Assembly (NCBI GenBank): GCA_016124585.1
Contig: WGNL01000004.1
Coordinates: 248,001-312,000, forward strand
Direction of reading: 5' to 3'
From: Bacteroidota bacterium
Lineage (GTDB): Bacteria > Bacteroidota > Bacteroidia > Chitinophagales > Saprospiraceae
Length of the DNA stretch: 64,000 nucleotides
Part shown: in pieces, positions 38,421 to 53,455 of the stretch
How the letters are laid out: the number at the start of each line of letters is the position of its first letter
Numbering within the stretch: the first letter of the stretch is position 1
The notes under the pieces: generated by a model
Databases searched by the model: none
Seen by the model: the letters and a program-made list of their open reading frames with translations, nothing else
Told to the model about the DNA's origin: nothing
Position numbers and translations under genes: made by a program

Positions 38421-38493
38421 GTCATTTGGACATTAGACATTGGTCATTTATTAACTCCCAATGACCAATGTCTAATGTCGCAAAGCAAATGAC
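38421..38493. repeat. Long inverted repeat with period-7 arms
   Basis: A perfect 20-base inverted repeat (38429-38448 and 38460-38479, 11-base loop) is extended by GTCATTTG and CAAATGAC, giving a stem of 28 pairs with a 6-base bulge. The right arm reads as CCAATGA, CCAATGT, CTAATGT, again period 7. It separates the alpha-2-macroglobulin-like gene from maf and could end transcription on the reverse strand. Confidence 0.8.
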
Positions 38494-41400
38494 TACTCCA
38501 CCTTCAACCGAATTCCCGCCGAATGACTGGTAAACTCAGGCGCATACATGCACTGAACAGTGGTAATGCCATTGGAGAAATCACCGTTGTAAGTGACCCG
38601 AAGTGGATATTCGAAAACATGGGTTCCCTTCGGCAACCAACTAAAAAAGAAATTCGTGGCAGCATCCCTTGTGCTTTCGTAGTATCCAAGTCCGCCCTGC
38701 CATTTATAGCTGCTTAGCACGTTGATAGGCTCAAAACTGCTGGCCCGCATGTCCTTCATGTGGACATATTCCATGTCACGGTCAACTCGAAGTTCAATGC
38801 GTACCTTCACTTTATCGCCGACTTTCAATTTTGCACCTTCCGCAATGGGTTTCAGCACTTCGCCCTTGTCCGAGTTTTGCACCAAAAGCAACTGCTTTTT
38901 GATAGTAAGCGGTGTTTCTTCGAAGGTTTTGATTTTATCCAATTGCTCGAAATACTGCCAGTACAGCGCTCCCCAAGCCACCACTTTGTTCGGGTTGGTG
39001 ACAGTTACATTGGCCATATCCTTGGTTACCTTATCGCCATCGAAGCGGAGTTTGAAATAACCTGTACCTGCTTCCGCTCCTTTTTGCGCTTGAGCAATGG
39101 CAGCACTACGTTCAGCGGCTTTAGGTGAGTTTTTATCTCCAAAATTGATGGTCACAGGCTGGTCTTCCAGCAGCCAATTGTCGCCAGAAGTAAGCAGGGC
39201 ATACACCGCAGCGGCTGTGGCTTTCGTCGTTTTCCAGTGGTTGGTCTGTTTGTTTTTCAACAACCAAACCTTCAGGTCATCCACTGACTTCGAATCGGCA
39301 GCCACATCGTTGAACACTTCAATCATCAGTGCCTGTGTCTCAATGGGCGCTTGGTACCACCACCAACCGGAAGTGTATTTCCAGTACATGCCCAGTTCAT
39401 CGTTGTTCAAAGAGCGCTCTTTCAATGACTTGGCGATTTTCTGCGCCGTGGCAGTTTTGCCATTTCTGTCCAATGAAAGTGCCAACATGCCTTCGCTGTA
39501 AAAGCCCTTGTTCAGCCAATATTTCTCCGCCTGACCGATGTAGAAGGCATGAACCGTGGCGACTTTCTGCTCCAACGAAATTGGCTGTTTCACCTTGAAA
39601 TTACCGCCCGTGTTCGCTTGGGCTGAATTGTTTTCAAGGAAAAACGAGCGGGCATACAAGTAGTGAATAACCATGTAGTTCAAATGGTCGTCTTCCCATT
39701 TAGCATCTCCTTTTTTCACTTGGCGCTCCAATTCCTCGTACTGTTCCACTATCCGGGCATCGCAGTAGCGCACGGCGGACTCGACCATTTGGCGGGTGGT
39801 TGCATTGCCCATCACATCCTGCACACCGAGACGCTGCAAATGCCCAAGTCCCTCCACGATATACTGCGTGATGTACCAATTATCCCGGTCGCCGGGGAAC
39901 CAGCCCCATCCGCCGTTGCTGAGTTGGCGCTCTTGCAGTTTTTTCAAGGCTGCTTCCTGTTCGAATGCCATTCGGTTCAAGTCGAAAAGCAGGGCGATAT
40001 TCTGCTTCTGTTGCTCCTCACTTTGGGCATTCAAAACCCAAGGCGTTTCTTCCAACAAGGCGGTTTTCAACTCTTGATTTTTGCTCAAATTCGACTTCAA
40101 GGCATCAGGTTCGTAATTGCGCCAGCGCTCAAAAATCGTCTTGATTTTCGGATGCGAATTGGCGACCGAAGTGGCCAAGCTGTTGGCGTAGTAGCGGCTG
40201 AAAATCTGCTCGTTGCACTCGTAAGGGTACTCCATCAGGTACGGCAGCGCCTGAACGGCGTACCAAGCTGGGTTTTGGGTAAATTCCAGCGTCATGCCCT
40301 CGTGGCGCAAGGTATTCGAGTTGTTGTTTTTCAAAGAATTCAAGGTGAAATTCTTCGTTTCCCCGCCCCGAACTGGCAACGGCAAAGTCTCCGTCACCAA
40401 CATTCGATTGGAAAGCACGGGGGCTGCGCTGCGCTCTGCATCTGAGAATGCACCTGCCGAAGCAATCACTGTGTGCTCGATGACAGGGACATCGGCCACA
40501 TCCGGCACTTTGAAGCGCCAAGCCAAGCGGCGGCTCTCGCCCGGTTTCAAATCCCGCAGCGGTTGCGCAGCGAGAATGGCTGCCATTGCTGGGTTCGTGC
40601 CATTCAATGGGAAAACCTCGTCGCCAGTCAGGGCATTTTTAAGTTCAAGTTTGTACTCGCCGTTCAGCGTTTCCTTGCTCAGGTTAACCACTTTGGCAGT
40701 GAATTCGATTTCGTCGTATTCCCTGAAAAACCTTGGTGGGTTGGGGACTACCATCAAATCTTTTTGTGTCACGATTTCCTTTGAAGTCGTACCGACCTCA
40801 AGGTCTTGTGTGGTGGCCAAGCTGAGGAATTTCCATTTCGTCAATGCCTCGTTCATCGTGAACTTGATGACCACATTGCCTTCGGCATCCGTCATCAGGT
40901 TTGGATAGAAAAAAACGGTTTCGTTCAAGTTCGTGCGAACTTTGACTTGGGAGAGGTCGGTGGCGGGCTTTGACTCTTCCTTTTCTTCAATTCCTTGTTT
41001 TGGAGGCAAATCCCCTTGTGGCCTAACGCCATCTATATAGTAATCTTTTCCCGATGTACGTGAACCTCTGACATTTAGACTTTGCTCTTCTGCTGCATCC
41101 ATTGTGGGAGCAGGTGCAGCTTCCATCATCACAACCCCATCATCCATATCCCTGCTTCTAGCTGCTGATTTATACATTCGACCACCATAGGCGTAGCCAT
41201 AATCATACATTCCCCAATTGAACCAGTTCAAACCCCTGTACTGCCGATAATCGCTATCAGGATTGTTTGAATAATTGTAGGCCAATTGATTAGCCTGTTC
41301 CATTTGGAAGCCTGAGGAATTGTAGCGAATCCTTGACCAAGTCGTTGGCCAGACATTTAGTCCCCAACTGTTGGCGGCAAAGGCATCCAAGGAAGCATCG

Positions 41401-44400
41401 TACATGCCTGCGACCATCTCTGCCGCTACTTTATCGCCTTTCGGACCTTTAATTTTTACTACCCATTCTTCTTGCTGACCGGGAAGGAGTTTGTCCCGGA
41501 AAGTGCCGTACTCAATGGTCATATCCTTGTTGCTCCACGGCACGTTGATGACGCCTTGGCTGTTCGTACTGCGGTTTTGCAAGGCCCAAGAGTAGGCATA
41601 GCTGACATTGCCACGGTATTCTTCGGCAATTTGGAACTGCTCACCTTGCAAGTCCTTCACGTTAAGCCATTTACGGCGGAGCATTTTACCATCCTTTTCA
41701 ATTTCAAGGAGGACGTTCAATGACCTTTCGGTTGTTCCAAACCATAGGTTAGCAGTCTGTCCAGGCTCGAAGGCGCCCCTGACCCCTGAAGGGGAACCAG
41801 TTAGCAAATGAAGGGATTGAGTCGGGACGGGTAGTTTTTTCTCCCCCAAATCATAAGCGCTGAAGTATTTCTTCACTTCAATTTTCTCCCCAAACTTGTC
41901 CTGCGTGGAGACAGTCACGACGTACCAGCCAGCGTTAATTTTAGTTTTTGGTAAAATAACTTCCTTCGACTTCTCCGTATCCCAGTTTTCTTCGAAAACA
42001 GTTCGCTCCACTTGCCAATTCTGCGGCTCGTTTTCATTGCTGTAGGCAAACTGCGGAAATACTTTTTTGAATTCCGCTTCCGTCAAAACCTGACGGTCGG
42101 GCTGCGGCCAATAGCGTTCGAGGTAGGTATGGTTGGGCGATTTCAACAATTCCAATTTCAGATTTCCCTTGGCTGGCTCGAATTGGCCATTCAGATTTTG
42201 CGTGAGCAAATCAAATTTCTTCAACGAATCAAGGTTCAGACTGGTATTCTCCAAAGATTGACCACATGCTGAAACGTCCACTTTCATCGAAATATAGCCG
42301 ACAGAAACGGAAGTCTCATTGCTTTGTGTTTCACCCGTGATGTCGGTCACATCGGCGTACACTGTGTAGTAAAACTCAGGTTTTTGTTCCTTCGAAATGC
42401 TGCGGTCGGGTAGGGCGGTGAACTTAATTTTGAATTTGCCCTCGGCATCGGTCGTGGCTTCACCGTTGGTGATTTCCATGCTCTCGCTCCGAATCGGGTA
42501 CCAGCGGAAATACCACCAAGGCAACCAAGGATAGCGGACTTCCCGTACCACTCGGTAGCTGACTTTAGCCCCGTCAATATTGTTGCCAGCGTAGGCAATG
42601 GCCTTGCCATCCACGGTCACTTCTTCGTTCAGGCGGTAGCTGCCTTTCACAGGTTCAAAGCTTACTTCGAACTTTGGCCGCTTGTATTCCTCCACTCGGA
42701 AGGACTGGGATTGCCCGCCAATACTGGCTTGGATTTGCATTTGCCCCAACAAACCAGTACGTGGAGCCGTGAACTGACCGCTGAAAGTGCCGTAGTCATT
42801 CGTCCGCAATTTCAAATCGTTGACCTTCTGGTAATTGGCATCGAGGAAAGTAACGGTCACTTCCCGGTTTTTGATAACGGTGGGCATCCGTTTTTCATCG
42901 TAACGCAGGCTGATACCTTTAAAATAAACGGTTTGGCCGGGGCGATAAATAGCCCGGTCGAGAAAGAACTGCGTGCCCTCGTAAGGCTTGGGGTCGTTCC
43001 GGTAATTGCTGACGTAAAAATTGGCGTCCGTATCCAAAGTATCCTTGCCAGTACACAGCACGAGTTTCAAGTTCCGTTCGTCCCTTTCCGTCACGTCAAT
43101 ATTCACGAAACCGTCGGCATTGGTTTCCTGTGTCCCTTTCTTTTTCCAATCGTATCGACGGGTCAGCGCATTGTATTTATTGACGAAGACATCCACTTTC
43201 ACCCCTTTCAGCGGTTGGCCGCTTTCCCGGTCGAAAACCACGGCGTTGGTCATGCCGTTGTCGCCTTGGCGCTGCCAAAGCCCCAACTTGGAAACATGCG
43301 TGACGGCGTAAGCAACCGCATTGGATTTTGCTTCAAAAGCATCATTGTCAGCCACCAACACGGCATAAGTGCCAAGCGGCAATTCCTCGATTTTTATTTC
43401 AACGGCATGTTGCCTAAAGTCGCCATCATCAGGCAGCTTGACTGACCAGGTTTTTACCGATGGCCAGTTTTTCAGCATGTTCAGAATCTTGACATTGGAC
43501 TCTGGTTCATACTTGGCCTTCTCCAATTCGTCCCTGCGCTTGTCGTCCAGCCGGATGATTTTTAGGTGAACGGTTGGAGTGTTTTTGTAATCAACCTTTG
43601 CCAAAAAGGGCTGGCCGGGCAGGTTCACCTGCTCCAAGGTAAGGGTCAAAGAACGGGCGTCAATACTGGCCTTCAAGCCTGCGCATTGTTTGTCTCCAAA
43701 ACTACCTGCATAGGTACGCATGGCTTCAGAGCAGAGTTCGCTGGCTTTTTTGTAGTACCATTTGCGCTCGTCCTTGTCCTCTTTGCCGAGTGGCGGCGCT
43801 TGGTATTCGCCTGCCTTGTTGAAATAATAACTGGCCAATTGGAACATCACTTCTGCTTCACCCGGATTGCCTTTGTATTGGCTACGAAGGTTTTCAAGGG
43901 CGGCCAAATAGGCGGCGTCCTTGGTGTCCTGCACACTATTACTATAGACAAAACTGAGGCGCTTCAAATCGGCGTCGAGCAGGGAGGGCGAGAATTTGAC
44001 TTTTTCAGATAAACGGAAACGCAACAAATCCTGGAACAAGAGCAGGGTTTGCAGTTTTTGCGATGCCGTATCCTGCGTCTCGATTTTCCAGTTCACAAAC
44101 TCGGCGGCTGGCGCAAACGCCTTGGCATCATCAATATAAAACTTGTAGGCTGGCTGCGTGAGGTAGCTGCGCTCGTTCATGAAATAATCAATGGCACGGT
44201 GCGCCAAGAAATCGAAAAGGGTAGGGCGGAGACCCTCGTCGTTGCGGCCGTCCGTCAGCAGAATCTTGAAATCGCCGAGGTCGGTGGTTTTCAACCGATT
44301 GTCTGTGAGACTGGCTTTGTAGAGAAAGGCCGAGCGGTCAGACAACTGTTCGATGCTCCAGGTCTTAAAATCTTTGGGCTTGAATTCCACAGTCGCAGTG

Positions 44401-44903
44401 CGGTTCTGGAAACGCCAAAGGTTTTGGTTGAGGTAATTGGCGTACATCTCCGCCAGTATGGACTGGAGGATGGGCTTCACGGGGTATTCCGCCTTCGTCG
44501 CCTCTTCTTCCAAACGATTGATGGCCATGGCAAGACCTTCTTCCTCCAATTGGCTTTGGTATTTCCCCCGATAAATCAAGGCTTTCACGGTCTGCGCTGC
44601 ATTGTTTTCCAAGCGGGCACTGGTGAGCAGCAGCTCCGTCTTTTCCAAGGCGGTCTTTGGAAGTCCCTGCTGTTCGAGGGAATCAATTTCACGCCAAGCG
44701 GCGTCGTAATCGTAGGTCATGGTGAGTGGTGAATAGTGATTGGTGATTGGTTGGGACTCAAAGGTAGCTTTAGGGTAAAATGCCTCGAATAGTTCCTGAA
44801 AATTAGCATTGGGTAATATCGTAAAACTAGTCAAAAAGCCTCCCAGGCAAATCAAAATTGCCAGCTTGATTTTCTTGTTTTGAAAAACTGCAAAATGGTT
44901 CAT
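38493..44903 (-). CDS. Alpha-2-macroglobulin-like protein (large, MG2 type)
   Basis: A 2136-residue envelope protein. An N-terminal signal or anchor (KIKLAILICLGGFLTSFTIL) is followed by a helical N-terminal region, MG-type beta domains (FFLDRAIYRPGQTVYFKGISL is the MG2 hallmark), the A2M block near LTKWKFLSLATTQDLEVG, and the terpenoid-like toroid with the thioester motif Cys1563-Asn-Glu-Gln1566. The C-terminus resembles the receptor-binding domain. Bacterial relatives trap proteases in the periplasm. About residues 1275-1292 (RGSRTSGKDYYIDGV) resemble a TonB receptor plug motif inserted before the A2M block. Residues 48-60 are encoded by a heptad repeat. Confidence 0.9.
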   Translation of the reverse strand: MNHFAVFQNKKIKLAILICLGGFLTSFTILPNANFQELFEAFYPKATFESQPITNHYSPLTMTYDYDAAWREIDSLEQQGLPKTALEKTELLLTSARLENNAAQTVKALIYRGKYQSQLEEEGLAMAINRLEEEATKAEYPVKPILQSILAEMYANYLNQNLWRFQNRTATVEFKPKDFKTWSIEQLSDRSAFLYKASLTDNRLKTTDLGDFKILLTDGRNDEGLRPTLFDFLAHRAIDYFMNERSYLTQPAYKFYIDDAKAFAPAAEFVNWKIETQDTASQKLQTLLLFQDLLRFRLSEKVKFSPSLLDADLKRLSFVYSNSVQDTKDAAYLAALENLRSQYKGNPGEAEVMFQLASYYFNKAGEYQAPPLGKEDKDERKWYYKKASELCSEAMRTYAGSFGDKQCAGLKASIDARSLTLTLEQVNLPGQPFLAKVDYKNTPTVHLKIIRLDDKRRDELEKAKYEPESNVKILNMLKNWPSVKTWSVKLPDDGDFRQHAVEIKIEELPLGTYAVLVADNDAFEAKSNAVAYAVTHVSKLGLWQRQGDNGMTNAVVFDRESGQPLKGVKVDVFVNKYNALTRRYDWKKKGTQETNADGFVNIDVTERDERNLKLVLCTGKDTLDTDANFYVSNYRNDPKPYEGTQFFLDRAIYRPGQTVYFKGISLRYDEKRMPTVIKNREVTVTFLDANYQKVNDLKLRTNDYGTFSGQFTAPRTGLLGQMQIQASIGGQSQSFRVEEYKRPKFEVSFEPVKGSYRLNEEVTVDGKAIAYAGNNIDGAKVSYRVVREVRYPWLPWWYFRWYPIRSESMEITNGEATTDAEGKFKIKFTALPDRSISKEQKPEFYYTVYADVTDITGETQSNETSVSVGYISMKVDVSACGQSLENTSLNLDSLKKFDLLTQNLNGQFEPAKGNLKLELLKSPNHTYLERYWPQPDRQVLTEAEFKKVFPQFAYSNENEPQNWQVERTVFEENWDTEKSKEVILPKTKINAGWYVVTVSTQDKFGEKIEVKKYFSAYDLGEKKLPVPTQSLHLLTGSPSGVRGAFEPGQTANLWFGTTERSLNVLLEIEKDGKMLRRKWLNVKDLQGEQFQIAEEYRGNVSYAYSWALQNRSTNSQGVINVPWSNKDMTIEYGTFRDKLLPGQQEEWVVKIKGPKGDKVAAEMVAGMYDASLDAFAANSWGLNVWPTTWSRIRYNSSGFQMEQANQLAYNYSNNPDSDYRQYRGLNWFNWGMYDYGYAYGGRMYKSAARSRDMDDGVVMMEAAPAPTMDAAEEQSLNVRGSRTSGKDYYIDGVRPQGDLPPKQGIEEKEESKPATDLSQVKVRTNLNETVFFYPNLMTDAEGNVVIKFTMNEALTKWKFLSLATTQDLEVGTTSKEIVTQKDLMVVPNPPRFFREYDEIEFTAKVVNLSKETLNGEYKLELKNALTGDEVFPLNGTNPAMAAILAAQPLRDLKPGESRRLAWRFKVPDVADVPVIEHTVIASAGAFSDAERSAAPVLSNRMLVTETLPLPVRGGETKNFTLNSLKNNNSNTLRHEGMTLEFTQNPAWYAVQALPYLMEYPYECNEQIFSRYYANSLATSVANSHPKIKTIFERWRNYEPDALKSNLSKNQELKTALLEETPWVLNAQSEEQQKQNIALLFDLNRMAFEQEAALKKLQERQLSNGGWGWFPGDRDNWYITQYIVEGLGHLQRLGVQDVMGNATTRQMVESAVRYCDARIVEQYEELERQVKKGDAKWEDDHLNYMVIHYLYARSFFLENNSAQANTGGNFKVKQPISLEQKVATVHAFYIGQAEKYWLNKGFYSEGMLALSLDRNGKTATAQKIAKSLKERSLNNDELGMYWKYTSGWWWYQAPIETQALMIEVFNDVAADSKSVDDLKVWLLKNKQTNHWKTTKATAAAVYALLTSGDNWLLEDQPVTINFGDKNSPKAAERSAAIAQAQKGAEAGTGYFKLRFDGDKVTKDMANVTVTNPNKVVAWGALYWQYFEQLDKIKTFEETPLTIKKQLLLVQNSDKGEVLKPIAEGAKLKVGDKVKVRIELRVDRDMEYVHMKDMRASSFEPINVLSSYKWQGGLGYYESTRDAATNFFFSWLPKGTHVFEYPLRVTYNGDFSNGITTVQCMYAPEFTSHSAGIRLKVE
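44721..44755 (+). repeat. Heptad tandem repeat island D
   Basis: Five 7-base units (GGTGAGT, GGTGAAT, AGTGATT, GGTGATT, GGTTGGG). On the reverse strand it encodes the short linker QPITNHYSPLT between the signal region and the first domain of the alpha-2-macroglobulin-like protein. Confidence 0.8.
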
Positions 44904-48030: not shown

Positions 48031-49155
48031 TTAGACGAACCCATGCTTCCACTTTTGAGCAATGACCATTGCTGTTTCAAGCATGGTGGGTTCCCAATTT
48101 TCAACCTTCCAATCACTGTTGGCTAAGCTCGAATTGGCCAACAATTGGCGTGTTGTTTCAAAGTTTGGACTTGTTTCCAAAATTTGGGATAGTTCGTTTT
48201 GCTGGTAAGCTAAAAATTCATTTTCGAGCGGCTCCCCTAAAATCCTAGCTGCATTTGGTGAAAAATCATTTTGCTGAGTAAAATTTCCAGGAGTTTCATG
48301 CTGAATTATGGAAGACATCTTCAAAAAGTCAGCTTGAAATTGGGCTTTCTCCGCATCGCCTCCAAGTGCATTCCCCAACTGTTCCATCACAACAAATTTT
48401 AAATTTGGGCATCGTGAAAGACTGGACTCAAGCATTTTAAAAACTGTTTCTGGAACCTGGCTGTCGTGGGTATCACGCCTAATTTTTTTATTGGAGACAA
48501 TGTTTGAGGCTTCCCAACTCCCACCAGAAATATGGATTTCCCTGACTCGCTCCAATGGGTACAATGCCATCAATTCTTCAAAGTCAACTTCAAAATTGTG
48601 CATTTGGCAAAACAGGTTGTGGAGGTCAAGAATGATAAATCCATTGACGGGCTCTACCAGTTTAGACAAAAAATCACCATGCTTTTTCACTTCATCTAAA
48701 CTGTACGAAAAAGCAAGGTTTTCAAGTCCTACTGGACATTGGCAAGCATCCTGAATTCGAAAAAGACGGTCAACACCAATTGAAAGTGTCGAAGCATTGT
48801 ATGGGATTCCAATTGGGGCACCTTTATGAAAATCTTCCCCAGTCATAAATCCAAAATGCTCTGAAACATGGTCAAACTGGTAAGTCTTTGAAAATTGGCG
48901 GAGCTGAGATAGCCAGTTTTCTTGCTCTGGCCTCCATTTACCTGAGAAAATGGAGAAATAAACCCCGTGGCCAATCAGCCTACTGGCCTTTCCATAAGTG
49001 AAAACCAATTCTTGGAACCATTCTGGAATTTCACGAACCTTGAAAAGTGCATCAAATGACCACTCCAACCCTTCAACGTTACCAGACTCTAACAGGGGGA
49101 GTGCTGCTAGAAGTGTGTTCCTGTCCAAATTGCAAGCAATGGAGGCGAAAGGCAT
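48031..49155 (-). CDS. DUF692/MNIO enzyme, putative RiPP-modifying iron oxygenase
   Basis: A 374-residue protein. Residues 1-285 follow the DUF692 TIM-barrel pattern with all the expected metal ligands: GHGVYFS (His63), HVSEH (Glu99, His100), GLENLAF (Glu145), LDLHNLF (Asp177, His179), EIHISGG (His208), DTHDSQV (Asp228, His230) and MEQLGN (Glu258). This multinuclear non-heme iron family modifies cysteines of ribosomal peptides, as in methanobactin, 3-thiaglutamate and chryseobasin synthesis. About 90 further residues (FSPNAARILG... to QKWKHGFV) form a helical C-terminal extension that may be a fused partner domain. The peptide encoded 75 bases upstream is the obvious substrate. Confidence 0.88.
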   Translation of the reverse strand: MPFASIACNLDRNTLLAALPLLESGNVEGLEWSFDALFKVREIPEWFQELVFTYGKASRLIGHGVYFSIFSGKWRPEQENWLSQLRQFSKTYQFDHVSEHFGFMTGEDFHKGAPIGIPYNASTLSIGVDRLFRIQDACQCPVGLENLAFSYSLDEVKKHGDFLSKLVEPVNGFIILDLHNLFCQMHNFEVDFEELMALYPLERVREIHISGGSWEASNIVSNKKIRRDTHDSQVPETVFKMLESSLSRCPNLKFVVMEQLGNALGGDAEKAQFQADFLKMSSIIQHETPGNFTQQNDFSPNAARILGEPLENEFLAYQQNELSQILETSPNFETTRQLLANSSLANSDWKVENWEPTMLETAMVIAQKWKHGFV

Positions 49156-49184
49156 AATGTCTATGGTGTTTCAGAAGGTAGGGA

Positions 49185-49222
49185 TTAGCGGGTTTCAGCC
49201 AATTTTTCTCAAAACCCGCTAA
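49185..49222 (-). promoter_or_regulatory. Stem-loop between precursor and MNIO genes
   Basis: TTAGCGGGTTT (49185-49195) and its exact complement (49212-49222) form an 11-base stem with a 16-base loop, 9 bases after the precursor stop. No T-run follows on the reverse strand, so partial termination or 3' end protection of the precursor message is more likely than full termination. Confidence 0.65.
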
Positions 49223-49230
49223 ACTTTGAA

Positions 49231-49473
49231 TTACCCCATTCCACAAGCAGGGCAATCACCACAAGTAGGAGGAGTTGTTTCACCTCCATTTTTTTGTTCA
49301 TTAGTGCCTTGGTTGTCGGTTGAAGTTCTATCAGTTGGTTCGACTTGCTCTTGGGTATCTTGTTTTGGGAGGTCAGTTTTTTCGATTTGGTCAACCAAGC
49401 CGCAAGAGGTAGATGTAGTGCCGAGCGTTACACCCACTACTATAGCTTGAAGCAATGATTTTGAAATTTTCAT
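49231..49473 (-). CDS. Putative RiPP precursor, chryseobasin-like, CxxCxxC core
   Basis: An 80-residue peptide. Residues 1-23 are a signal-like hydrophobic segment (SLLQAIVVGVTLG) ending in STSC24, a possible lipobox. The middle (25-66) is polar, rich in Thr, Gln, Asp and Glu, and probably disordered. The C-terminus is TCGDCPACGMG, with Cys71, Cys74 and Cys77 evenly spaced by two residues. Small peptides with this build and a CPACGMG-like end are found beside DUF692 enzymes in Bacteroidota; I recall them as chryseobasin-related. The adjacent gene on the same strand is a DUF692 enzyme. The peptide would be modified at the cysteines and exported or lipid-anchored. Confidence 0.82.
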   Translation of the reverse strand: MKISKSLLQAIVVGVTLGTTSTSCGLVDQIEKTDLPKQDTQEQVEPTDRTSTDNQGTNEQKNGGETTPPTCGDCPACGMG

Positions 49474-49580: not shown

Positions 49581-50444
49581 CTACCAAATGACATGAAAAT
49601 GGTCGTCGTGCCTGGCAGCCTTACAGCCTTGAAAACGTATTTTGTCAATTTTATCTAACCCAAGTCTGGTTTTCAAATGTGGCTCCAACAGTATTTTGTG
49701 AACTGATTTTTGGTTTGAAAATAATTGGATAAGTTCGGCTGTTCTGGTTTCATCCAATTTGTAGCTTTCTTCTTTGTAAAAATGTTTTGTAACCCTCATC
49801 TCGAAACTTCGCAAAAAATTGCCGCATTTTTCTTCCATATCAACTTCTCCTTGTAAAGGTTTTGCGCTAGCTCCATACGCTAATGTAGTGGGAGCGCCAT
49901 TCATTGGATTACCTGATTTTACATCCAACCAATCAAACGCCATGTCCACTGTTGTTCCATTCCTATGTGTAAAATGTGGCTCCAAAGGATATCCATTGAA
50001 AAAAGGAAAATTGGCATCTAGATAATACGTCTTGGTTCCAGGAAACCTAATGGCCATTTGATTAGCCACTTTTTCGCAGCTTTCTTTAACAGCTGGGCGA
50101 ACATAATGATGATTTAACAAGCAAAAATAGAGCACATTATGTGGTTTGAGGTTTGAATCACTAAAGATTGGAAGCGGTACACGTCCACATTGCCATTTAG
50201 CTAGTGGGGGCACAATATATAGGCTTACCAAGCAATAAATGCAAGTAAAACTTGTAATACCAACAAGTCGATATTCCCATTTTGGTACAAATTTCCCTTT
50301 TAGCCACTGGTAAAATGGCAAAAATGCCAACCAAATTAGGCCACCAACCTGTGTAAAAAGTGTAAATACAACGATTATTATCAAATTTTTAATAAATCTC
50401 CCCATTTTGCACGATTCTTGAACTGCTGTTTTAACCCCCAGCAT
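49581..50444 (-). CDS. Membrane-anchored LAS-type metallopeptidase-like protein
   Basis: A 287-residue protein. Two N-terminal membrane helices (about 17-45 and 60-80) are followed by a domain with THRNGTTVDMAFDW (His160, Asp167) and, at the very end, RHDDHFHVIW (His279, His282 and His284). This is the zinc site layout of LAS enzymes (MepA, D-Ala-D-Ala dipeptidases, M15/M74), which cut peptidoglycan peptides. It could act on the cell wall. It is encoded 107 bases upstream of the candidate RiPP precursor on the same strand, so a role in peptide maturation is possible but only suggested by position. Confidence 0.65.
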   Translation of the reverse strand: MLGVKTAVQESCKMGRFIKNLIIIVVFTLFTQVGGLIWLAFLPFYQWLKGKFVPKWEYRLVGITSFTCIYCLVSLYIVPPLAKWQCGRVPLPIFSDSNLKPHNVLYFCLLNHHYVRPAVKESCEKVANQMAIRFPGTKTYYLDANFPFFNGYPLEPHFTHRNGTTVDMAFDWLDVKSGNPMNGAPTTLAYGASAKPLQGEVDMEEKCGNFLRSFEMRVTKHFYKEESYKLDETRTAELIQLFSNQKSVHKILLEPHLKTRLGLDKIDKIRFQGCKAARHDDHFHVIW

Positions 50445-50488: not shown

Positions 50489-53455
50489 ATGAGATTCACT
50501 CACCTACTAATGACAGGTACACTGTTCATTATGACCCTACCGTTGTTTGGCCAGCACCAATATTGGCAGATTTTGGACGAAAGTAAAATTGTTAACCGTT
50601 CCGACGAACGATGGATTGTGCCAAAAAAGTATGGCACACTAAGCCTTGACGTTCAAAAATTCAGTAACTTTTTAGCAGACGTACCACTTCGATTTAACGA
50701 AAACCATGCTTCAAAGCTTATTGAATTACCAATGCCCAATGGAGATTTTGAGCATTATGAAATTGTAGAGGCACCCATTATGCATCCAAGGCTTGCTTCT
50801 AAGTTCCCCATGATTCGTTGTTTCACAGGCCAAGGCGTGGAAGACAAAGGGGCTTTGGTCTACTTGGACATCACTCAAAAAGGTGTTCATGCAATGATTC
50901 TCAAGCAAGGAGAAACTTTTTACATTGACCCCTATTTCGCTAATGAAAATGAGACATATATTGCCTATAAAAAAGTAGATTTTATTAAAGAAAATAAGAC
51001 TGCTCTGCAATGCTTAGAAGATGATTCCGTATTGCCACAGGCTTCAAACAATATGGCTCCTGCTGAGCGAATAGCAGGTGTCAACCTCCGTACTTTTGAC
51101 TTGGCAATAGCTGCTGCTGGAGAATATACGCAATTTCACGGAGGAACCGTGGCTGATGGTTTGGCAGCAATCGTTACAGCCGTAAATCGGGTGCGTGGAA
51201 TATACGAAACAGAGTTGGCAATTAGCTTTGAATTAGTGGCTGACAATAATCTGTTAATTTATACGAACCCAAGTACAGACCCATATTCTTCCCCACCTAC
51301 ATTGGCAGAAAATCAATCTAATATTGATGCAGTTATAGGTAATGCTAATTATGACTTAGGTCATGTCGTAGGTATTGGCACTGGTGGGATTGCCACACTA
51401 AATTCTACTTGTATTAATTCCAGTAAGGCTCGTGGTATGACCGCATTAGATTCACCCGTTGGCGATCCATTTTACATTGATTTTTTAGCGCATGAAATTG
51501 GTCATCAATTTGGAGCACACCATACTTTTAACGGTGATGAAAGTAATTGTGGCAGTGCAGGCACATACCCAAGCTCTGCATTTGAACCGGGCAGCGGCTC
51601 AACTATTATGGCATACGCCGGCATTTGTGGGTCGCAAAATTTACAGATAAATAGCCATGCATATTTTCATAGGATCAGTTTGGACGAAATCACTAAATTT
51701 GTTGATGTAACAATAGTAGATATTCCAGGCTGTGAAACAGTTACCGCAACTGGGAATAATTGCCCAGTTATTGATGCTGACCCAGATGGGATGGATGGAA
51801 AATACATCCCCATAAGTACACCATTTGAGCTAACAGCTAATGCTACAGACCCAGATGGAGACCCTATTGTCTATAATTGGGAGCAAATGGATTTGGGGGA
51901 TCCGGGTACACCATCACCAAGTGAATCTGGCCCGATTCTTAGGTCTTACCCGCCAAGTGCATCACCTACCCGAAATTTTCCTTTATTGAATGCCATTTTG
52001 GACAATACAACGATTTATGGGGAATTTTTACCCTCTATATCCAGAACGCTTAAATTTATAGCAACAGCACGTGATAATAACATTAATGGCGGGGGCAATG
52101 CATCCGATTCAATTATGCTAAATGTCACAAATTCTGCAGGCCCATTTTCTATCTTGAATTTTAACTCAACAGCCATTGTCAGTGGTACTATATTCTTGCA
52201 ATGGAATGTAGCAAATACTACCGATGCTCCTGTAAATTGCGCTAATGTTGATATTCTTTTGTCGTATGATGGAGGCCAAACTTTTAGTTTATTGGTAGGC
52301 AATACGCCTAATGATGGTAATGAATTAGTTACTTTGCCAAATATTGCTACAGGTCAGGCTAGGATAAAAGTAAAATGTGCTGATAACGTATTTTTTGATA
52401 TCAATAATGCCGATTTAAGGATTGCCCCATCAGATGCTAGCTGTTCTGAGAAAATAACTTCAGGTAGTTTCTCTTCTAGCACTGGTTGGACGGAAACCTC
52501 TACCAATTATGGTTATGTGATTAGTAATTGGGGGCTTTATCACAAAGCTGATGGCAGCGCTTGGCTTGGATATGCTGATGACGAAGTTTCCACTATTTCC
52601 CAAACAATAACAATTCCTTCAGCCGCACATTTTGCCTCTTTGGAATATTGGTATAAACTGGAGGCTACTGATTGTGGCAATGATATTTTTAGGGTAAAAA
52701 TCAATGGAGTTGTAGTTAAAAATTATACGTTATGCAATGATCCGGCTACTGGAAGTTGGGTTCGTCAGCTTATTGATTTAAGTGGTTACAAAGGTACATC
52801 TCCTACGATTATGTTTGAAGTAATAAATAACTCGAATAGCCCAACTGATGTAATCATTGATGATGTTTCAGTTTACGTATGTGAAGGTGGCTCATTTTCA
52901 CCGCTTCCAGTGGAACTTATGGAATTTGAGGCAAAACCTGTTGAAAATATGGCCAAACTTCATTGGTCAACTGCAAGCGAGACAGATAATCGTGGTTTTG
53001 ATGTAGAAATGCAAAATGAATATGGTGATTACCAGACCCTTGGTTTTGTGCCGGGTAAGGGTACTTCTAATGAAATCAGCAATTATTATTTTGAAGTGCC
53101 AGGGTTAAAGCCAGGGACTTATTATTTCCGTTTGCGTCAGAAAAATGAAAATGGTCAAGAGGAATTCAGTCCAATTAGGAGTGTTCAAATAAGTGGTATT
53201 ACAAAGGTTGAAGTATCTCCAAATCCAGTTTCTGACGTTGCATTTTTCGAAGTAACGCTTGAAAAGCCTTCCTTGGTCCATTTGCAAATTCTTGATGGAT
53301 TAGGTAGGGTAGTAGGCACTGTTACAAATGATGAATTTGGTTCAGGGAATTTTGATTTGGCTTATAATGTTTCTCAATTGACCAATGGAATTTATTATTA
53401 TCATATGGTCACTGGAAATACTGACACAAATGGTCGATTTATAGTCAACAAATAA
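50489..53455 (+). CDS. Secreted reprolysin-like metalloprotease with T9SS type A domain
   Basis: A 988-residue protein. A signal peptide (MRFTHLLMTGTLFIMTLPLFGQ) and a propeptide of about 180 residues precede the catalytic domain. The catalytic domain has HEIGHQFGAHH starting at His335 (HExxHxxGxxH) and the Met-turn STIMAYAGIC with Met374, as in M12B-type metzincins. Beta-sandwich domains follow (PKD-like DPDGDPIVYNWEQ, then a jelly-roll near 650-800). The C-terminus (VSPNPVSDVAFFEVTL to NGRFIVNK) is the type A sorting signal of the type IX system. It should be released or attached at the surface and degrade protein. A strong terminator follows. Confidence 0.93.
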   Translation: MRFTHLLMTGTLFIMTLPLFGQHQYWQILDESKIVNRSDERWIVPKKYGTLSLDVQKFSNFLADVPLRFNENHASKLIELPMPNGDFEHYEIVEAPIMHPRLASKFPMIRCFTGQGVEDKGALVYLDITQKGVHAMILKQGETFYIDPYFANENETYIAYKKVDFIKENKTALQCLEDDSVLPQASNNMAPAERIAGVNLRTFDLAIAAAGEYTQFHGGTVADGLAAIVTAVNRVRGIYETELAISFELVADNNLLIYTNPSTDPYSSPPTLAENQSNIDAVIGNANYDLGHVVGIGTGGIATLNSTCINSSKARGMTALDSPVGDPFYIDFLAHEIGHQFGAHHTFNGDESNCGSAGTYPSSAFEPGSGSTIMAYAGICGSQNLQINSHAYFHRISLDEITKFVDVTIVDIPGCETVTATGNNCPVIDADPDGMDGKYIPISTPFELTANATDPDGDPIVYNWEQMDLGDPGTPSPSESGPILRSYPPSASPTRNFPLLNAILDNTTIYGEFLPSISRTLKFIATARDNNINGGGNASDSIMLNVTNSAGPFSILNFNSTAIVSGTIFLQWNVANTTDAPVNCANVDILLSYDGGQTFSLLVGNTPNDGNELVTLPNIATGQARIKVKCADNVFFDINNADLRIAPSDASCSEKITSGSFSSSTGWTETSTNYGYVISNWGLYHKADGSAWLGYADDEVSTISQTITIPSAAHFASLEYWYKLEATDCGNDIFRVKINGVVVKNYTLCNDPATGSWVRQLIDLSGYKGTSPTIMFEVINNSNSPTDVIIDDVSVYVCEGGSFSPLPVELMEFEAKPVENMAKLHWSTASETDNRGFDVEMQNEYGDYQTLGFVPGKGTSNEISNYYFEVPGLKPGTYYFRLRQKNENGQEEFSPIRSVQISGITKVEVSPNPVSDVAFFEVTLEKPSLVHLQILDGLGRVVGTVTNDEFGSGNFDLAYNVSQLTNGIYYYHMVTGNTDTNGRFIVNK

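Follow-up and report, generated by a model that had tools for sequence, protein, structure and literature searches.

Within the 64,000-nucleotide stretch analysed here (the window), two adjacent genes on the minus strand most probably form a RiPP-lipoprotein cassette of the DybA/DybH type (DAG-RiPP), a reading to which we give a probability of about 0.87. They encode a lipoprotein-like precursor peptide and an MNIO (DUF692) enzyme of the ChrH subfamily (Table 1). We assign the system to an already described kind, since the peptide scores above the cutoff of the model NF050125 (ChrA_rel_RiPP) and the arrangement matches DybA/DybH. DAG-RiPPs are described for Bacteroidota in PMC12636315 (2025) as a lipobox precursor ending in CPxCGxG together with a partnerless ChrH-type MNIO, and the features found in the window are a ChrH-subfamily barrel with a helical domain, the metal ligands, the CPxCGxG end, the lipobox and the two-gene cluster.

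An earlier note on this DNA had placed a peptide gene 75 nt ahead of a DUF692 gene and read the pair as an MNIO-modified RiPP related to chryseobasin. The gene order and the spacing hold, and at the level of sequence the relationship is upheld by the matches to NF050125 and PF05114 and by the likeness to DAG-RiPPs. The system had also been called unusually small. It is indeed a minimal cluster of two genes, but such a size is normal for the DybA/DybH subfamily, because PMC12636315 describes the clusters of non-Chryseobacterium Bacteroidota as minimally consisting of precursor and MNIO. PADLOC matched neither the peptide nor the enzyme, and a search of the genome contigs with the enzyme returned one relative.

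Table 1. Features of the cassette and of the adjoining gene (window coordinates)
Feature	Position	Strand	Description
Precursor peptide gene	49231..49473	-	80 aa; ORF call; above NF050125 cutoff
MNIO (DUF692), ChrH subfamily	48031..49155	-	374 aa; TIM barrel and C-terminal helices 313-328, 332-340, 356-368
Signal peptide and lipobox MKISKSLLQAIVVGVTLGTTSTSC	49402..49473	-	Signal type with family-wide sequence conservation; 61 aligned signals
CPACGMG tail codons, predicted MNIO modification site	49234..49254	-	Chemistry as described in PMC12636315
75-nt intergenic stretch between precursor and enzyme, hairpin, possible attenuator	49156..49230	-	Folding compared with shuffles
M74-like gene	49581-50444	-	Hydrophobic N-terminal part; weak Peptidase_M74 match below cutoff; C-terminal HDDHFHV stretch

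The precursor peptide

The window peptide is composed of a signal (residues 1-24), an acidic tether (25-73) and the tail CPACGMG (74-80). Its cysteines stand at positions 24, 71, 74 and 77, and it ends in CGDCPACGMG. Its lipoprotein-like character, already recognized from the sequence, is supported by a PS00013-like pattern that ends the signal at the lipobox Cys24. A family search against MNIO precursors, which had been suggested as a check, gave a full-length match to NF050125 (3e-13, 50.3 bits, cutoff 40). This model already covers the window peptide, and no difference from it was detected. No bufferin or EGKCG-type precursor match was obtained for the peptide with the NCBIfam and Pfam models.

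Cys71, Cys74 and Cys77 had been regarded as an evenly spaced core. This view needs correction, as the conserved motif of the family is the last seven residues, CPACGMG, with Cys74 and Cys77. The third cysteine, Cys71, is an additional residue typical of the lineage and lies outside the predicted modified core. The exact tail CPACGMG occurs in 37 of 66 family precursors, selected by a CxxCGxG end or by CPxCG near the end. The lipobox cysteine is absent from three of these 66, and the strict lipobox pattern misses ten.

Other substrates were sought in the window's genome, where the CPxCGxG-stop pattern matched the window peptide only (one match). A looser tail pattern gave nine matches, compared with two in the control, and among these nine only the window peptide and an 84-residue ORF (L140), which has no lipobox-like signal, are open frames from a start codon. 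Elsewhere, paralogous precursors ending in CxxCGRG stand beside a CxxCGMG or CxxCGLG precursor (L196, L199, L202, L205, L207, L060, L061 and L092); their tails read CITCGRG, CPPCGRG, CIACGRG, CPLCGRG or CLDCGRG, and several are without a lipobox.

The enzyme

The enzyme matches PF05114 (MbnB_TglH_ChrH) with 1.1e-31 and 110.5 bits (cutoff 25), and its best NCBIfam match is MNIO_ChrH (1.1e-116). As the latter score of 389.9 bits lies below the equivalog cutoff of 600 for NF050165, the enzyme is not a strict ChrH equivalog. It also stays below the cutoffs for BufB (93.8 of 310) and HvfB (79.4 of 360).

The iron-ligand positions are H63, H100, E145, D177, N180, H208, D228, H230 and E258. They were placed by alignment to TglH with the ligands named in PMC10880893, except that the TglH alignment does not reach H63 and H100, which were located by an alignment to 3bww and by the HG and SEH motifs. 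The expectation of a full set of metal ligands was thus correct, with nine of nine TglH ligand positions present, and none of them varies among the 55 sequences of the alignment, which include that of the window.

In PMC12636315 a C-terminal helical bundle is described as a feature of the ChrH subfamily. The AlphaFold model of the enzyme, based on 50 sequences, has a mean pLDDT of 92.6 and displays a barrel and, on its C-terminal side, three helices; in this region W349, W354, M358, I365 and W369 are invariant among the 50 sequences. The best PDB matches to the model are TglH, a DUF692 protein and MbnB, with chains of 253 to 296 residues.

Distribution and co-occurrence

The window's family, with Lewinella, is what we take to be Saprospiraceae-type in the usage of GTDB; in the NCBI taxonomy, Lewinella is assigned to Lewinellaceae. 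Among 398 genomes of this family, 67 gave some enzyme match and 57 a match at E 1e-90 or better; the co-occurrence count excludes the ten genomes with weaker matches, in which the enzyme is fragmentary or a remote MNIO. The precursor model matched at E 0.001 in 57 genomes, in 48 of them above its cutoff. Enzyme and precursor were found together in 56 of the 58 genomes that have either, and since 56 genomes of the same family have both, the pairing is not due to chance.

The two exceptions differ in kind. In G315 only the enzyme was reported (L092), and two CxxCGxG peptides that escaped the precursor model adjoin it. G149 gave two weak precursor matches with the same signal type and with tails devoid of the motif, and the enzyme search had no match there. 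The earlier note had named homologous peptides that occur without the enzyme and without cysteine conservation as evidence that would speak against its reading; this was the case in only one of the 57 precursor-positive genomes, namely G149. The two G149 peptides (L128, 5086-5286 and 5434-5655, both on the minus strand) are tandem orphan lipoprotein-like peptides with MRISK or MRILK.. signals and Gly-rich tails without CPxCGxG, and they may once have been precursors, or may be substrates for a different system.

At 55 of 58 enzyme loci (window included), a complete C-x2-CG-x-G precursor lies upstream of the enzyme, the nearest within 632 nt; the spacer is under 40 nt at 38 of the 55 loci, and two precursors are present at nine. 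As to the three remaining loci, L073 has a partial precursor at a contig edge, at L093 the contig breaks off within the enzyme, and at L050 the precursor of the genome sits on another contig (L135). CAACGMG-ending precursors on a contig other than that of the enzyme were observed in two genomes, G274 and G414 (L133, 532-789, and L135, 7550-7738, both minus strand), and these peptides are possible substrates in trans.

Genomic neighbourhood

From 58 loci, some of them on short contigs, 616 neighbouring ORFs (at least 70 aa long and no farther than 8 kb away) were clustered, and the clusters were compared by recurrence, without annotation. The most widespread cluster other than the precursor was seen at 7 of the 58 loci, where it stands at scattered positions. 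For this reason, the context gave no functional clue.

In the congener G006 the rhamnosidase gene and the M74-like gene, which flank the window pair, overlap with no pair between them, and the congener G008 has retained the genes on the other side of the pair but lacks the pair itself. As the flanking genes are directly adjacent in G006, we regard the pair as a self-contained cassette, apparently acquired or lost in one piece. Enzyme remnants for which no precursor was found nearby are present in G067, G071, G387 and G785, the one of G387 at a contig end. By locus, the remnants or fragments of the enzyme with no precursor found nearby are L136, L137, L138, L139 and L208 (L138 at a contig end), which suggests cassette decay. 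A cassette that is widespread (57 of 398 family genomes) and for which an empty site exists in a congener offers natural presence/absence pairs for the study of function.

The M74-like gene was considered as a third member of the operon and rejected, as it stands in G006, G008 and G009, where no enzyme match was found; fragments of it occur in the congeners G005 and G012. Because it is present in congeners with no enzyme match, and because its Pfam match is below the cutoff, we treat it as an upstream neighbour only. Two other proteins are encoded farther out. One is a Reprolysin-like metallopeptidase with a secretion-system sorting tail (Por_Secre_tail; 50489-53455, plus strand), the other a bacterial alpha-2-macroglobulin-type protein of 2136 residues (A2M, MG2, bMG10; 38493-44903, minus strand).

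Proposed maturation

The closest described systems are DybA/DybH of Dyadobacter crusticola, ChsA/ChsH and HymA/HymH, which share with the window the upstream lipobox precursor, the partnerless MNIO with its C-terminal helical domain, the CPACGMG-type tail and the minimal cluster. The likeness to DybH is drawn from described features and family models. DybA has three cysteines, whereas the window peptide has four, the additional Cys71 and the acidic tether being its own. According to PMC12636315, DybH alone generates a product lighter by 4 Da, in which a macrocycle and a hydantoin are formed and a single thiol stays free. For recognition by DybH the seven-residue tail is sufficient, and a lipobox-form precursor expressed with its signal in E. 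coli becomes triacylated. DybA, ChsA and HymA, the non-Chryseobacterium Bacteroidota homologues tested there, all gave -4 Da.

From these characterised homologues we infer reaction, product and lipidation in the window system as follows. The MNIO would act in the cytosol without a partner protein, recognize the C-terminal CPACGMG and remove four hydrogens. Cys74 would thereby be joined to the beta carbon of the former Cys77 to give a macrocycle, a hydantoin would be closed over the Gly-Met-Gly end, and one thiol would stay free. Export would follow, then diacylation of Cys24 and cleavage by signal peptidase II, so that the lipidated cysteine could anchor the peptide in a membrane and the acidic tether, roughly 49 residues long, would present the modified tip. 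What the tip does there is left as an open question in PMC12636315; our guess is that the displayed tip binds a metal, a thiol partner or a ligand in the envelope. The copper or thiol-metal chemistry that had been expected from the sequence has found no support, as the characterised product of such a tail is a macrocycle with a hydantoin and a single free thiol, and no report of its binding metal was found in the Results and Discussion of PMC12636315.

Cysteines in the tether

The tether was compared across the families. For the window's family, 63 lipobox precursors were used; three precursors without lipobox cysteine were left out and L133 and L135 added, the starts of L071 and L089 were re-chosen, and the lipobox of L090 was moved to the second cysteine. 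At least one extra tether cysteine (1 to 4) is present in 60 of the 63, so that cysteine accounts for 108 of 2197 tether residues, and the tethers are acidic, with 26.7% D+E and 7.8% K+R. CxxxC occurs in 32 of the 63 precursors. The pattern CxxxC-x-[IVL]-[DN]-H is found in 16 of them (14 loci), its CxxC form in none, and a looser form (C-x2/3-C with His within five residues) in 21. The window peptide, with Cys71 as its one extra cysteine, contains neither this pattern nor the looser form.

In an order-level sister family, represented by 24 lipobox precursors (L102, near-identical to L203, was skipped, and L208 has no precursor), only 3 of 761 tether residues are cysteines, with 17.3% D+E and 17.5% K+R. 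By reading, a true extra cysteine is present in 1 of the 24; the automated count gave 3, two of which (L196 and L197) result from a misplaced lipobox. The chr-type genus gave 50 strong matches, of which 30 were evaluated. All 30 precursors lack cysteine outside the tail, 29 have a signal end resembling AxAQ or AxGQ instead of a lipobox, and the tether holds 30.1% K+R and 6.9% D+E. We infer that this genus is Chryseobacterium; its locus L130 has chr genes. A tree of 84 enzymes computed with a quick method has a weak backbone, 32 of its 81 inner branches being under 80. In this tree the enzymes of the sister family appear nested among those of the window's family, and 9 changes are required to account for the extra-cysteine label.

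The main text of PMC12636315 contains no mention of Saprospir, Lewinella, Haliscomenobacter or an extra or fourth cysteine, and no description of family-specific extra tether cysteines was found in the literature on DAG-RiPPs, DybH, chryseobasin, CPACGMG, or Saprospir with DUF692. The cysteine-bearing acidic tether of the window's family may therefore be new, and the window adds a member with such a tether from a bacterial family absent from that main text. It also leads to a testable hypothesis, in which tether thiols work together with the free thiol of the macrocycle. A bolder proposal, which we hold to be unlikely, makes the lipopeptides of the window's family a distinct subclass with a functionally active tether, in which the one to four tether cysteines (arranged as CxxxC-x-[IVL]-[DN]-H in a quarter of the peptides) and the free thiol form a membrane-anchored metal site or a redox (disulfide) pair, and the conserved signal is a second recognition element for the MNIO.

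Alternative explanations

The lipopeptide could buffer copper or another metal in the manner of bufferins and oxazolins. Some of these are likewise lipidated MNIO products, and the extra cysteines, together with the CxxxC-x-[IVL]-[DN]-H pattern seen in relatives of the window peptide, could bind metal. However, bufferins and oxazolins (BufABC, HvfABC) have their own precursor and core motif, a DUF2063-type partner and thiooxazole or oxazolone groups, as described in PMC12452194, whereas the window peptide matches NF050125 and no bufferin model, and Pfam gave no DUF2063 match among the 12 neighbour proteins scanned. Moreover, no metal-handling family recurs in the neighbourhood (58 loci, clusters unannotated), and PMC12636315 describes the product of the homologue as free of aromatic heterocycle absorbance. 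We consider metal buffering improbable on this basis, but it concerns the role only, and the main chemistry is compatible with it.

A variant chemistry restricted to this lineage would affect the product itself. Cys71 lies three residues ahead of Cys74, and 11 of the 63 family lipobox precursors have a cysteine within five residues before the tail, so that the MNIO might engage Cys71, Cys74 and Cys77 and form a different cross-link or a second heterocycle. Yet the extra cysteines are found at widely differing positions, whereas the seven-residue tail hardly changes, the ligand positions of the active site are unchanged, and the tail alone suffices for DybH as described in PMC12636315; such a reaction is thus very unlikely to be realized here.

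Very unlikely, too, is S-methylated chryseobasin itself, the +10 Da product of ChrH and ChrI, which are encoded in a cluster with ChrE and ChrP (PMC10214503). The chryseobasin system shares the CPACGMG tail and the MNIO subfamily with the window, but its precursor has a signal without lipobox and a basic, cysteine-free tether instead of a lipobox and an acidic one, the window enzyme is below the ChrH cutoff, DybA, ChsA and HymA gave -4 Da, and none of Anthrone_oxy (ChrI), epimerase or M42 peptidase was detected by Pfam among 12 neighbour proteins scanned (36.4-61.5 kb), while Anthrone_oxy, ribulose-phosphate epimerase and M42 peptidase genes all lie near the enzyme at the chr-type locus L130.

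Signal peptide and spacer

Some observations fit less well with the DAG-RiPP reading, namely the enzyme score below the ChrH equivalog cutoff, the fourth cysteine, the family precursors that lack a lipobox, and the conservation of the signal. In the aligned signals, K2, S4, K5, L7, L8, A10 and G14 (window numbering) are each conserved in 49-60 of 61 sequences, one of which (L071) was aligned from a wrong start. The mean pairwise identity is 0.548 for the signals and 0.558 for the enzymes (1703 pairs), a comparison of these two sets only. That the two values are so close may suggest that the signal does more than direct export, which recognition by the tail alone would not predict. Preliminary results mentioned in PMC12452194 suggest that the signal of a bufferin is part of the recognition sequence.

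The spacer between the two genes can fold, but since several long spacers have no hairpin and 38 of 55 spacers are under 40 nt, the hairpin is not a family feature; at the 17 loci with spacers of at least 45 nt, that of the window among them, strong hairpins are present in some cases and absent in several. In the window, the 75-nt spacer would fold into a hairpin with 14 base pairs and a single bulge (-16.5 kcal/mol, z -2.16; 5 of 200 shuffled sequences fold equally well). The spacer of the nearest relative, L037, differs in sequence and reaches -18.6 kcal/mol (z -4.95).
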